Positions 9,524-13,524 of a DNA stretch of 40,907 nucleotides are shown here, piece after piece; within the stretch, counting starts at the first letter, position 1; every line of letters starts with the position of its first letter. A program made the position numbers and the translations under genes. The stretch comes from Chloroflexota bacterium (GTDB lineage Bacteria; Chloroflexota; Anaerolineae; Anaerolineales; Anaerolineaceae): positions 1-40,907 of the forward strand of contig JAAZNW010000113.1 of assembly GCA_012798065.1 (NCBI GenBank), written 5' to 3'. The notes under the pieces are model-generated. The model did not search any database. It was not told where the DNA came from and was given only the letters and a program-made list of their open reading frames with translations.

Positions 9524-12070
9524 GTGCTGAAAGGTCAGTCTTCAAACCTGTTAACTTACATTTCCAACCTTTTCAATTCATCTGATAGTAAAGGTTGCAT
9601 ACCCTTTCTGCAAGAACTTGCTCGTCGCGAGGCAATGCTTGCGTCCTTTCCCCAAGAAATACATCCTGCCCTGGTTGATACGCTGACCTCAAAGGGAATT
9701 TTGAACTTATATTTACACCAGGCTGAATCTTACACAGCCTGCGAGAAGGGAAAAAACCTGGTTATCTCTACCGGCACTTCCAGCGGTAAGAGTCTTTGCT
9801 ACCAGCTGCCGATGCTGGACAGTATGCTGAAAGAACCTTGTAAAACGGCTTTGATGTTGTTCCCAACTAAGGCTCTGACCAATGATCAGTTGAATTCGCT
9901 CCAGGCTCTTATCCCAAAAAAGGGACCTTGTCAGCCAAAATGCGCTGTATATGATGGAGATACACCTCAACGAGAACGGGCTGCGATCCGAGACCAGGCT
10001 AATATACTTTTAACCAATCCAGATATGCTCAACATGGGCATTCTCCCCCATCACCCGTTATGGGCGAGATTCTTCGAAAACCTGGCTTACGTGATAATTG
10101 ATGAAGCGCATATCTACCGGGGCGTCTTTGGCTCCCATATTGCCAATTTAATCCGGCGGTTAAAGCGCATCGTGGATTTTCACGGGTCAACGCCAAAATT
10201 CATTCTCACTTCAGCGACAATTAAGAACCCCAGGGCATTATCTGAGGTTTTAATAGAAGAGGAAGTTGAATTAATCGCACATGATGGGTCACCCCAGGGA
10301 ATGAAGTATTTTATGGTGTATAACCCACCATTGGTAAACGAAGAATTGGGCGTACGCGAGGGATTGCTGCTCTCTGTGAGGAAATTTGTTTCCTCTCTTT
10401 ACCGCTTTCAGGTTCAAACACTGGTTTTTTGCCGTACGCGCCGTTTGGTTGAATTGCTGCTGAGAGATGTGAAAAATGACCTGCAAATTTCCAATGGCAG
10501 CATTCGTGGGTACCGCAGCGGTTACTTGAAAACGGAAAGACGCGAAATCGAGTCTGGATTAAAGGCTGGTGAGGTGAAAATTGGGATCGCGACGAACGCC
10601 CTGGAGTTAGGCGTCGATATTGGGGGAGTTGATTGTGTGCTGTTAGCTGGCTACCCCGGTTCCATCGCGAGTTTACGGCAACGCATCGGTAGAGCGGGCA
10701 GGATGTTCAACCCATCACTGTCGATTTTCATCGCGTCGATGAACCCCTTGGACCAGTTCCTGGCACAAAATGCCGAGTATCTGCTTTCCAGGGATCTGGA
10801 AGAAGCTCTTCTCAACCCCAATAATCCCCTGATTTTATTGGAACATTTGCAATGCGCAGCGGCTGAACTGCCATTGGATAACACTGAATATTTTGGGAAG
10901 CTGAACCCGGAAGAACTGAAACCATATTTGGATTACCTGACTCAATTAGGCGTACTGCACCGAAAAGGAAAACGCTACTATTTTGTGTCTGATGATTACC
11001 CGGCCCAGCATGTCTCGCTGCGGAATACGCCCTCAAATGCCATTGCCCTACGCTGCATGAACAACGGAAAGGTTGAAGTCGTCGGCGAAGTCGATTACAA
11101 CAGCGGGTTATGGATGGTGCACCCTGGCGCGATCTATATTCATGATGGAGAAACTTACCGCGTGGATGAACTCGACCTGACAAATTGCCTGGCTTTTCTT
11201 GTTCCATGTGATGAGGATTACGTCACCGAGCCAGTTATTTCAGCCGAAATCGATGTTCTCTCTGTTAAAAACACATCAGATCATCGGCTGTACCAGCTTA
11301 ATTGTGGAGAAATAAAAGTACGTTCCCAGGTAAAAGGGTATAAGCGTATTAAATGGAGCACGAAAGAGGTATTAGATACAACAACCCTGGACATGCCTGA
11401 AACGACCTTGGAATCGATGGGCGTGTGGTTGGTGCTGAAAGATGAATGCGTGGAGTTATTGAGAAAAGAAGGTTTGTGGAATAGTGATCGAAACGATTAT
11501 GGACCTCATTGGAAGAAAATTCGGAATGAGATCCGTGCTCGTGACCATTATCAATGCCAGGTATGTGGTCAGCCTGAATCGCAGGTTGAGCACCATGTTC
11601 ATCACAAAGTCCCTTTTCGCTTATTTACTTCACTAGAACAGGCGAACAATCCTGAAAACCTGGTAACGTTATGCAAAAAGTGTCATTCGCTGGTGGAAAG
11701 CCAGATACGGGTGCGCAGTGCTTTATCAGGATTAAAATACCTGATGAGCGCCCTCTCACCTTTACTGGTAATGAGTGACGCTGGCGACCTGGCCAGCTAC
11801 TTTGACTCTGTTGCGAAGTTCGCGGACTGTAAGCCGGCGATTATCATTTATGATAATATCCCGGCTGGCATAGGTCTTTCTGAAGGGATATTCCAGCGTT
11901 TTCAGGAATTGCTTGAGAAGGCACGGGAGGTGATTACGCGTTGTGACTGTTCGGATGGCTGCCCTTCCTGTGTGGGGCCTGCCCTCGAAGGGGCGTACGG
12001 GGGGAAATTTGAGACAATGGAACTGATAAAATATCTTCTGGAGACACCGGCGCATGGAATCAATGGCTGA
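9524..12070 (+). CDS. mrfA: MrfA-like DEAD/DEAH helicase with inserted HNH domain and DUF1998
   Basis: This 848-residue superfamily 2 helicase is of the YprA/MrfA kind. In Bacillus subtilis MrfA works with MrfB in repair of mitomycin C damage. Visible motifs are STGTSSGKS (about 81-89), the DEAH box IIDEAH (about 190), SAT in LTSATIKN, and the RecA2 block ATNALELGVDIGG through QRIGRAGR. The C-terminal DUF1998 part ends in a zinc cluster, CDCSDGCPSC (about 807-816). Between the two halves of DUF1998 lies an HNH nuclease-type module (about 665-725): CQVCG, an EHHVHH core, NPENLVTLC and KKCH. Standard MrfA goes directly from the preceding strand into the segment seen here as LKYLMSALSPLLVMSDAGDL. 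The start is GTG. It overlaps mrfB by 17 bases. Confidence 0.9.
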   Translation: MLKGQSSNLLTYISNLFNSSDSKGCIPFLQELARREAMLASFPQEIHPALVDTLTSKGILNLYLHQAESYTACEKGKNLVISTGTSSGKSLCYQLPMLDSMLKEPCKTALMLFPTKALTNDQLNSLQALIPKKGPCQPKCAVYDGDTPQRERAAIRDQANILLTNPDMLNMGILPHHPLWARFFENLAYVIIDEAHIYRGVFGSHIANLIRRLKRIVDFHGSTPKFILTSATIKNPRALSEVLIEEEVELIAHDGSPQGMKYFMVYNPPLVNEELGVREGLLLSVRKFVSSLYRFQVQTLVFCRTRRLVELLLRDVKNDLQISNGSIRGYRSGYLKTERREIESGLKAGEVKIGIATNALELGVDIGGVDCVLLAGYPGSIASLRQRIGRAGRMFNPSLSIFIASMNPLDQFLAQNAEYLLSRDLEEALLNPNNPLILLEHLQCAAAELPLDNTEYFGKLNPEELKPYLDYLTQLGVLHRKGKRYYFVSDDYPAQHVSLRNTPSNAIALRCMNNGKVEVVGEVDYNSGLWMVHPGAIYIHDGETYRVDELDLTNCLAFLVPCDEDYVTEPVISAEIDVLSVKNTSDHRLYQLNCGEIKVRSQVKGYKRIKWSTKEVLDTTTLDMPETTLESMGVWLVLKDECVELLRKEGLWNSDRNDYGPHWKKIRNEIRARDHYQCQVCGQPESQVEHHVHHKVPFRLFTSLEQANNPENLVTLCKKCHSLVESQIRVRSALSGLKYLMSALSPLLVMSDAGDLASYFDSVAKFADCKPAIIIYDNIPAGIGLSEGIFQRFQELLEKAREVITRCDCSDGCPSCVGPALEGAYGGKFETMELIKYLLETPAHGING

Positions 12071-13274
12071 ACGGCTGAAATCATTAGGGTTTAAAAAAGC
12101 GGTATCCATTTCCCCCAGTACAGCCAAGAGCGATGTGAAGCTTGAAAGCGCCGTCGATGGGAAGATCATTCAGAATTCCCTGGGCGAATTCGTGCTTAAA
12201 GAAACACTTTACCCGATGAATCACCAACACGGCGTGGTCACTTTCCATTATGATTTCCACACAGAGACCATTAATCGGACAGCGAAAATTACCCCTGAGT
12301 CTCCTTCTCTTGAAAGACTCTTGTTTATTGATACAGAAACTTCAGGATTGTCTGGAGGAACAGGAACATTTGCTTTTTTAGTTGGTTATGGGCGATTTTC
12401 GAGTGAAGGATTTTTACTTACACAATTAATGATACGGGACCCAGGTGAAGAACCAGCCATGTTGCTCCACCTGATTAATCAAATCAATGACAAAGACATT
12501 TTTGTTTCGTTCAATGGAAAGTCTTTCGATATCCCCCTGTTACAAAACCGGTTGGTGTTGAATCGACTGCCGGTAAAATTGCGCGAATTTCAGCACATAG
12601 ATATGCTGCATATTTCAAGGAAACTTTGGAAGTATAGCCTTGAATCTTGCTCCCTTAAAACCATTGAAAGTGCTATCCTGAAGTTTAATAGAAACAGTGA
12701 AGATGTTCCGGGGTGGATGATTCCTGACATTTACTTTGCCTTCTTACGTACGGGAGACCCCAGCGGATTGAAAGAAGTGGTTTATCATAATGCCCAAGAC
12801 ATCCTTTCCCTGGCGGCTCTGTTCATCCATGTTTCAAAATTGTTAGCAGGGACTCTTTCTCCAAGTTGTGTACCAGTGGATGACCTTATTGCGATCAGTC
12901 GTATCTATTGGGACCTGGGGTCTTACGAGGTCAGCCAGAAAATACTCAAATCCATTTTGCCGCGAACAAAGACTGCTGAACAGAGAGTCATGATTAATGC
13001 TTCTCTCGGGCGATTTTTCAAGAAAATGGGACATTCAAACGAAGCTATCCAGTACTGGCAAGAGGCAGCAGAAAACGGCGATGCCGCTGCTTGCATTGAA
13101 CTGGCGATGTATTACGAGCATTCAATCAAAGATTACTCAACAGCCCTGCATTGGTGTGAGAAAGGCTTACAGGCATCAAAGAATGGAGATAAAAACCCGG
13201 CAAGTAGCCGTTTCTTAATAAGTACACAAAAAAGGATGACACGATTGCAGTTCAAGAGGAGTAACCATGTTTAA
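12054..13274 (+). CDS. mrfB: MrfB-like DEDDh exonuclease with C-terminal TPR
   Basis: This 406-residue protein matches YprB/MrfB, a metal-dependent DEDD exonuclease that partners MrfA in mitomycin C repair. Exonuclease motif I is IDTETSG with D93 and E95, motif II is SFNGKSFD with D159, and motif III is YHNAQDILSL with H245 and D249. Acidic residues and histidine are all kept, so the enzyme is probably active. From about residue 310 the sequence turns into TPR-like helices (SLGRFFKKMGHSNEAIQYW). The start at 12054 lies inside mrfA, with GGAG ten bases upstream; 12063 is an alternative. The overlap shows tight coupling to the helicase. Confidence 0.88.
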   Translation: MESMAERLKSLGFKKAVSISPSTAKSDVKLESAVDGKIIQNSLGEFVLKETLYPMNHQHGVVTFHYDFHTETINRTAKITPESPSLERLLFIDTETSGLSGGTGTFAFLVGYGRFSSEGFLLTQLMIRDPGEEPAMLLHLINQINDKDIFVSFNGKSFDIPLLQNRLVLNRLPVKLREFQHIDMLHISRKLWKYSLESCSLKTIESAILKFNRNSEDVPGWMIPDIYFAFLRTGDPSGLKEVVYHNAQDILSLAALFIHVSKLLAGTLSPSCVPVDDLIAISRIYWDLGSYEVSQKILKSILPRTKTAEQRVMINASLGRFFKKMGHSNEAIQYWQEAAENGDAAACIELAMYYEHSIKDYSTALHWCEKGLQASKNGDKNPASSRFLISTQKRMTRLQFKRSNHV

Positions 13275-13524
13275 ACGAACCCCGCGAAATGAAGTGGTCT
13301 TTGTCGCTAATGGAATGCTTGAAGCTGAATCTGTGAAAATATTGTTGGAATCTTTTGGTATCACCGCGTATACGAACCAGGAGTCCGCGGGGACGGTCTA
13401 TGGGTTGACAGTGGGGCCATTAGGTGAGGTTGAAGTAATTGTACCGCCTGAGCAGGTCGACGACGCGAGAAAGATCATCGCCGAGATGAAAGCTGGCAAT
13501 CTTGAGGTTAAAGACAACGAGTAA
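13267..13524 (+). CDS. DUF2007 family small protein
   Basis: The 85-residue soluble protein has the DUF2007 pattern: a beta strand VVFVANGMLEAES, a helix, ITAYTNQES, and a closing EVEVIVPPEQVDDARKII. These domains resemble ACT- or PII-like folds and are often annotated as putative signal-transducing proteins, but no biochemical role is established. AGGAG lies five bases before the ATG. The start overlaps the end of the mrfB-like gene by eight bases, so it is translated from the same message. It could bind a small ligand or a metal, but no cysteine or histidine cluster supports the latter. Confidence 0.82.
   Translation: MFKRTPRNEVVFVANGMLEAESVKILLESFGITAYTNQESAGTVYGLTVGPLGEVEVIVPPEQVDDARKIIAEMKAGNLEVKDNE

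Follow-up and report, generated by a model that had tools for sequence, protein, structure and literature searches.

A predicted HNH nuclease domain inserted into the MrfA-type repair helicase of Anaerolineae

A contig of 40,907 nucleotides from a member of the Anaerolineaceae (Chloroflexota bacterium; GenBank assembly GCA_012798065.1, contig JAAZNW010000113.1; the whole stretch is referred to here as the window) raises the question of whether a DNA repair helicase can carry its own incising nuclease: its homologue of the helicase gene mrfA encodes an additional module that resembles an HNH endonuclease. In Bacillus subtilis, the 3'-5' helicase MrfA and the 3'-5' exonuclease MrfB are epistatic to each other and form a recently discovered, UvrABC-independent repair pathway, whose lesions are mitomycin monoadducts or intrastrand crosslinks (PMC11194089, PMC12458937). 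The B. subtilis MrfA-MrfB complex has been modelled and its authors leave open that there are unknown partners, and the words "incision" and "endonuclease" are absent from the main text of the same paper (PMC11194089). Here we find that the module is real and conserved, that it is a domain inserted into a known repair helicase and marks a lineage, and that the insertion looks like the outcome of one domain-gain event; we then consider what it may do there.

An HNH domain directly ahead of the MZB domain of MrfA

The mrfA homologue begins with a GTG start codon and spans positions 9524 to 12070 of the forward strand, encoding 848 amino acids in which open reading frame (ORF), Pfam, phmmer, and AlphaFold/Foldseek analyses delineate a superfamily 2 (SF2) helicase and the inserted HNH domain. 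Pfam places a DEAD helicase domain at residues 65 to 235 (9716 to 10228), with a Walker A motif (TGTSSGKS) at 9770 to 9793 and a DEAH box at 10100 to 10111, and a Helicase_C domain at residues 294 to 394 (10403 to 10705), with motif VI (QRIGRAGR) at 10679 to 10702; an overlapping ResIII match is also reported. The three SF2 motor motifs of MrfA/YprA helicases are thus all present, as are the two accessory domains expected of this family, an HRQ1-type winged helix (WHD_HRQ1, residues 431 to 502, 10814 to 11029; PF22982, E value of 1e-12) and a four-cysteine MZB/DUF1998 zinc-binding domain (residues 738 to 817, 11735 to 11974; PF09369, E value of 3.5e-18) with the motif CDCSDGCPSC at 11942 to 11971. 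The best NCBIfam match, TIGR03817 (620 bits, E value of 5.6e-186), falls under its cut-off of 874.1 bits; this is a hypothetical-equivalog model and a narrower label than the MrfA/YprA family. AlphaFold predicted the full-length protein with a mean predicted local distance difference test score (pLDDT) of 89.9 and a predicted template modelling score of 0.85, and the four best Foldseek matches to this model were all MrfA structures (6znp_A, E value of 3.5e-79, TM scores of 0.73 and 0.81).

The best phmmer match in the PDB, B. subtilis MrfA (6znp), aligned in two pieces, residues 29 to 640 and 732 to 825 of the query to residues 24 to 634 and 646 to 738 of the chain, leaving an insert of about 90 residues (641 to 731, 11444 to 11716) against an 11-residue counterpart in B. 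subtilis. The HNH module therefore occupies the position of a short linker (634 to 646) in B. subtilis MrfA, directly N-terminal to MZB/DUF1998. An earlier note on this DNA had described an HNH nuclease module lying between two halves of DUF1998; the module itself was borne out, but its placement was not, as all four MZB cysteines (807 to 816) lie downstream of the insert.

Within the insert, the predicted HNH nuclease domain covers residues 657 to 727 (11492 to 11704, forward strand), as judged from Pfam, invariant residues, AlphaFold, and Foldseek. Over residues 678 to 723, the Pfam family PF01844 scores 40.4 bits (cut-off, 21.4 bits; E value of 3.2e-10), and it also matches each of 58 aligned members of the family individually (58/58, E ≤ 0.001). 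The CxxC pair, HH-H core, and CxxCH motif that the earlier note had seen around residues 665 to 725 are indeed in frame within the continuous ORF, with a predicted zinc ribbon of C678-C681 and C717-C720 and predicted catalytic residues H693-H694, N712, and H721; together with W663 and E725, these key positions fall at nucleotides 11510 to 11698. A loose HNH-type regular expression applied to all six frames of the window matched this module and nothing else. A profile search recovered the HNH endonuclease 5h0m (E value of 1e-9), IscB (5e-8), EcoKMcrA (2.9e-5), and group II intron proteins (3e-4 and 2e-3), followed more weakly by chains of the non-nuclease DotN and by ZRANB3 (0.02 to 0.03). An AlphaFold model of the module alone (mean pLDDT of 89.2) places strands at residues 691 to 694 and 713 to 716 and a helix at 718 to 732, so that the beta-beta-alpha metal fold of HNH endonucleases, which the earlier note had considered indispensable to its reading, is present in the prediction. 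The top Foldseek match to this model is again 5h0m, the HNH endonuclease of phage GVE2 (probability of 1.00, E value of 2.4e-3).

The putative active site is strictly conserved. No substitution occurs at C678, C681, H693, H694, N712, C717, C720, or H721 in any of the 70 aligned MrfA proteins with an HNH domain, nor at G660, W663, R673, D674, P697, A707, L713, or E725. The catalytic and zinc residues stay invariant when the set is widened to 100 unique sequences (out of 109), but there the invariance of the VHH motif is biased because up to 80 of the 109 came from a scan whose pattern contains it. All eight residues are nevertheless kept in each of 48 proteins that were retrieved with whole-protein or profile queries and no motif pattern; this set includes the window protein and one protein from outside the class Anaerolineae (L150), and leaves out L149, whose reading frame breaks before the region. 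Mean column conservation is 0.69 for the HNH module compared with 0.70 for the RecA domains. For the one close pair, the only one of four pairs in which the synonymous rate could be computed, nonsynonymous and synonymous rates in the HNH region were 0.11 and 2.4, and amino acid identity was 84% in the HNH region compared with 92% in the core. By sequence and predicted fold, the case for a nuclease identity of the module is strong; alignment with 5h0m and McrA, together with general HNH chemistry, points to H694 as the putative general base and to H693 and H721 as putative metal ligands. A few otherwise conserved HNH-MrfA genes contain single stops or a frame break (L008, L018, L022, and, near the MZB domain, L010), possibly through assembly errors.

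Distribution and origin of the insertion

To the suggestion of the earlier note that MrfA homologues be surveyed for the domain, the answer is that it marks the MrfA of the class Anaerolineae. A profile of the HNH and MZB domains (alignment A2, 171 positions), run on 400 evenly drawn Chloroflexota genomes, gave full-length matches in 51 of 55 Anaerolineae genomes compared with 1 of 345 other Chloroflexota. Two of the four remaining Anaerolineae genomes gave weak matches (G085 and G298) and two gave none (G276 and G396). Outside the class, at least 96 genomes match the MZB part only (profile start at positions 63 to 82), the others having weaker matches or none, and in 20 MrfA proteins of other classes, chosen from these MZB-only matches, the aligned segment is 41 to 45 amino acids long compared with 124 to 148 in HNH-bearing proteins. 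The single positive genome outside the class (G050) also encodes, on a different contig, an MrfA that lacks the HNH domain, has an estimated contamination of 8%, and has an HNH copy that groups with an Anaerolineae member; for these three reasons we treat its HNH-MrfA as probably a contaminant, although it may reflect transfer.

Closer to the window, 30 of 41 genomes of close relatives, including the window's own, contain an mrfA locus, and every locus that covers the relevant region carries the HNH domain (29/29; L030 ends before it). MrfA is thus sometimes absent, yet every alignable Anaerolineae MrfA carries the domain. The best 80 of 432 related loci are all from Chloroflexota (56 labelled as Anaerolineae, 23 with no class given, and 1, L090, labelled as Candidatus Aquidulcis of the Limnocylindria). 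They include strain-named records that are not metagenome-assembled genomes (MAGs), namely Anaerolinea thermolimosa (L038), Bellilinea caldifistulae (L060), and Ornatilinea apprima (L072), which we take to be cultured isolates. The 29 covered loci and these three records lead us to reject an assembly artefact or a one-off occurrence, an outcome that the earlier note had named as fatal to its reading and that the class-wide count likewise excludes. Two genomes encode two HNH-bearing MrfA copies each (G221, C206 and C212; G340, C119 and C125).

We performed a phylogenetic analysis of the helicase core of 67 proteins with the HNH columns excluded (L030, L031, and L149 were left out). In this tree, a single branch separates the 47 HNH proteins from all the others, with a Shimodaira-Hasegawa-like approximate likelihood ratio test (SH-aLRT) support of 99. 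With B. subtilis MrfA as the root, the HNH proteins form one clade, with a support of 99, and require one change. Weighing against a single gain, rooting on six far YprA-like outgroups makes the HNH group paraphyletic and requires two changes, a gain and then a loss; these outgroups are plasmid-borne and sit on long branches. Five of them lack an HNH domain by Pfam, and none is seen in the alignment for the sixth (L264) or for B. subtilis MrfA. Mean identity to B. subtilis MrfA over the core is 54% for the 20 HNH-less Chloroflexota proteins compared with 44% for the 47 HNH-bearing ones. We prefer the near root, with an earlier gain followed by loss as the alternative, and on these sequence comparisons the HNH domain was most likely inserted once, in an ancestor of Anaerolineae, into the linker before MZB.

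The inserted domain resembles stand-alone phage and McrA-type HNH domains. A scan of viral sequences retained at least 79 loci, and among the matches listed it is mainly the HNH part that is covered. At the match in three viral contigs (L182, L197, and L198), the ORFs encode short HNH proteins and no helicase was found in them; where they match, these proteins share 32 to 51% identity with the module, and they are candidate kin of the source of the domain.

MrfB, UvrC, and the neighbouring genes

The helicase gene is followed by a homologue of mrfB (12054 to 13274, forward strand), which overlaps it by 17 nucleotides and encodes a predicted DEDDh exonuclease of 406 amino acids with weak TPR/Sel1 matches (Pfam, phmmer). 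The association of an MrfA-type helicase with an adjoining MrfB exonuclease, as first noted from the sequence, is thus upheld: the protein matches B. subtilis MrfB (8un9) with a phmmer E value of 1.7e-42, and D93, E95, D159, H245, and D249 are retained in alignment with it. Across the 55 class genomes, MrfB is matched in 50, together with HNH-MrfA in 49 and alone in one (G298, at a contig edge), while three have neither; the co-occurrence has a Fisher P value of 0.0015 when ancestry is ignored. On the haloarchaeal plasmids L261 and L266, a ribonuclease H-like gene lies directly upstream of the YprA-like helicase gene, an order opposite to that of mrfA and mrfB.

The apparent operon continues with a third gene overlapping mrfB, which encodes a small DUF2007 protein (13267 to 13524, forward strand; PF09413, E value of 3.5e-9); in 11 of the 80 related loci (L032 to L035, L038, L041, L048, L054, L060, L072, and L089), a relative of it follows mrfB or is encoded close to it. 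Pfam analysis of ten further window proteins identified nine of metabolic or housekeeping types and one phage-integrase-family (tyrosine) recombinase, encoded on the reverse strand at 521 to 1513, near the left end of the window and about 8 kb upstream of mrfA. The uvrC gene of the window's own genome (G000:C70:35348-37114) has one in-frame TAA, which may be an assembly error or mark a broken uvrC; among the uvrC matches listed for other genomes, none has an in-frame stop.

Proposed function and comparison with known systems

Taken together, these sequence features and models suggest that MrfA in Anaerolineae acts as both a helicase and a nicking endonuclease and provides the incision when MrfAB removes lesions, a reading to which we assign a probability of roughly 55%. 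The 3'-5' helicase would load at a bulky lesion or on single-stranded DNA next to it, and the HNH domain would nick one strand close to where the DNA has been opened. The motor would then unwind the exposed 3' end while MrfB degrades it, and the resulting gap would be filled. An HNH domain located next to MZB in MrfA could thus generate the 3' end on which MrfB acts. Such a model calls for no new partner and fits the joint occurrence of HNH-MrfA and MrfB, and under it H694 should be indispensable for cleavage. We infer cleavage itself, a nick rather than a double-strand break, a lesion as the substrate, and MrfA and MrfB acting as one complex, and we regard the proposed function of HNH-MrfA as a well-founded hypothesis. 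The broader idea that the whole class runs a self-contained, UvrABC-independent excision, in which HNH-MrfA opens and nicks the damaged strand and MrfB resects it, is held more tentatively, at slightly below even odds.

Several observations weigh against this reading. No strong full MrfA match was found in 11 of the 41 close relatives (G005, G006, G007, G009, G012, G013, G014, G026, G034, G036, and G038), so that mrfA itself is dispensable; together with the four class genomes without a full match, this leads us to reject universal presence in the class. The first seven of these belong to the 16 genomes of the window's own genus, where gene loss and missing sequence are indistinguishable because six of the seven are less than 90% complete (G013 is at 93%). 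Repair proceeds in B. subtilis without the domain, which is thus not essential to the MrfAB pathway. MrfB lies inside the fetched flank in 32 of the 80 related loci, some flanks being truncated, and 2 of the 51 HNH-MrfA genomes have no MrfB match (G402 and G422). The best Foldseek E value for the module is the 2.4e-3 given above, with zero matches under 1e-3, which we attribute to the shortness of the domain. Finally, UvrC is encoded in all 55 class genomes. On UvrC alone we reject a replacement of UvrABC, and the self-contained excision route proposed in the earlier note survives in part: a predicted nuclease does lie beside mrfB, but HNH-MrfA would be an additional route and not a replacement for UvrABC nucleotide excision repair.

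The strongest rival, although unlikely, is that the protein is a structure-specific nuclease for stalled or reversed forks or flaps, in the manner of ZRANB3, and that lesion excision is not its main job. Human ZRANB3 does combine an ATP-driven motor with an HNH domain that cuts 5'-flap ends (PMC12841045), and its HNH structure (5mkw) appeared weakly in both of our searches (profile E value of 0.026; Foldseek rank 34, E value of 0.41); however, ZRANB3 is no close relative, the motor here is of the MrfA type and co-occurs with MrfB, and MrfB is known in B. subtilis for its part in the repair of mitomycin C damage (PMC11194089). We consider it improbable that the domain is no longer catalytic and acts instead as a zinc-stabilised element for DNA binding or protein docking. 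HNH-like folds can be structural, this one adjoins another zinc domain, and Legionella DotN, a secretion component with an HNH-like fold, is among both the profile and the Foldseek matches, but the H-H/N set (H693, H694, N712, and H721), invariant in the 70 aligned and the 48 pattern-independent proteins, would be superfluous in a module that was only a zinc ribbon.

Still less probable, in our view, is an anti-phage role like that of other YprA-family defence helicases. Nucleases are found within or next to the helicases of DISARM, Dpd, Druantia, and ARMADA (PMC12458937), relatives of the HNH domain include phage and restriction-type proteins, and the patchy presence of MrfA among close relatives and the integrase-family gene upstream could be read in the same way. 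MrfA is also recognised by 60 PADLOC models, with DruE scoring best (E value of 3.2e-37), but the models shown cover the helicase motor (residues ~10 to 421). Of the nine other window proteins scanned, eight have no PADLOC match and MrfB matches only a generic DEDDh model, weakly (E value of 5.7e-5), which leaves no defence partner gene among them. The class-wide occurrence of HNH-MrfA on one tree branch is likewise unlike that of patchy defence genes, and the nine other neighbours scanned with Pfam are metabolic or housekeeping genes. That the domain is a selfish homing HNH or an assembly artefact we regard as extremely unlikely. Mobile elements often carry HNH domains, but this one occupies the same site on one branch throughout the class and in the three strain-named records, and it sits in a domain linker within a continuous frame, no search aimed at intein or intron features having been made.

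If an incising helicase-nuclease is indeed what Anaerolineae MrfA represents, the HNH domain would supply in cis an incision step for which we found no enzyme named in the MrfAB papers (PMC11194089, PMC12458937). The presence throughout the class of a helicase with its own conserved predicted nuclease turns this into a concrete prediction about the opening incision of MrfAB, one that single-residue mutants could test; complementation reportedly depends on alleles from close relatives (PMC12458937). A preprint survey of nearly 52,000 YprA proteins describes nucleases of the PLD, Vsr, PD-(D/E)xK, EEP, RNase H, and MrfB types. Its main text mentions HNH once, in the title of a reference, and the domain reported here would add a nuclease type otherwise unnamed there (PMC12458937). 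A fusion of MrfA/YprA with HNH was not described in the titles or abstract openings found by a full-text literature search, although the architecture may already be recorded, uncommented, in domain databases.

Compared with B. subtilis MrfA/YprA (6znp, 6znq, and 6zns), the Anaerolineae protein shares the helicase core, winged helix, four-cysteine MZB domain, and MrfB partner, and differs in the HNH domain at the site of the short linker; its partner resembles B. subtilis MrfB (8un9) in a DEDDh exonuclease core with aligned catalytic residues, the comparison being confined to that core. For the HNH domain itself, the best fold match, the phage GVE2 endonuclease 5h0m, has the same zinc-containing fold but is a 130-residue chain without a helicase and has D-H where Anaerolineae MrfA has H-H, whereas EcoKMcrA (6ghc) shares an HNH of the VHH-x-x-P...N...CPNCH kind but is a modification-dependent restriction enzyme without a motor. 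Cas5-HNH and the type I-E-HNH Cascade (Foldseek ranks 2 to 4 and 6) likewise have an HNH domain grafted onto a DNA-opening machine, which in their case is an RNA-guided CRISPR complex. The YprA-family defence helicases (DISARM DrmAB, DruE, DpdJ, and ARMADA) belong to the same helicase family and have nucleases in or near the protein, but these are of PLD, Vsr, PD-(D/E)xK, or other types and are C-terminal or encoded by separate genes (PMC12458937). Human ZRANB3, finally, unites an ATP-driven helicase-like motor and an HNH nuclease in one protein, and its D1020A, H1021A, and H1045A substitutions abolish nuclease activity; its HNH domain is, however, C-terminal (948 to 1067), it has PCNA-interaction motifs, and MZB is not among the domains described for it (PMC12841045), whereas the motor encoded in the window is a DEAD/Helicase_C motor with the architecture of MrfA.

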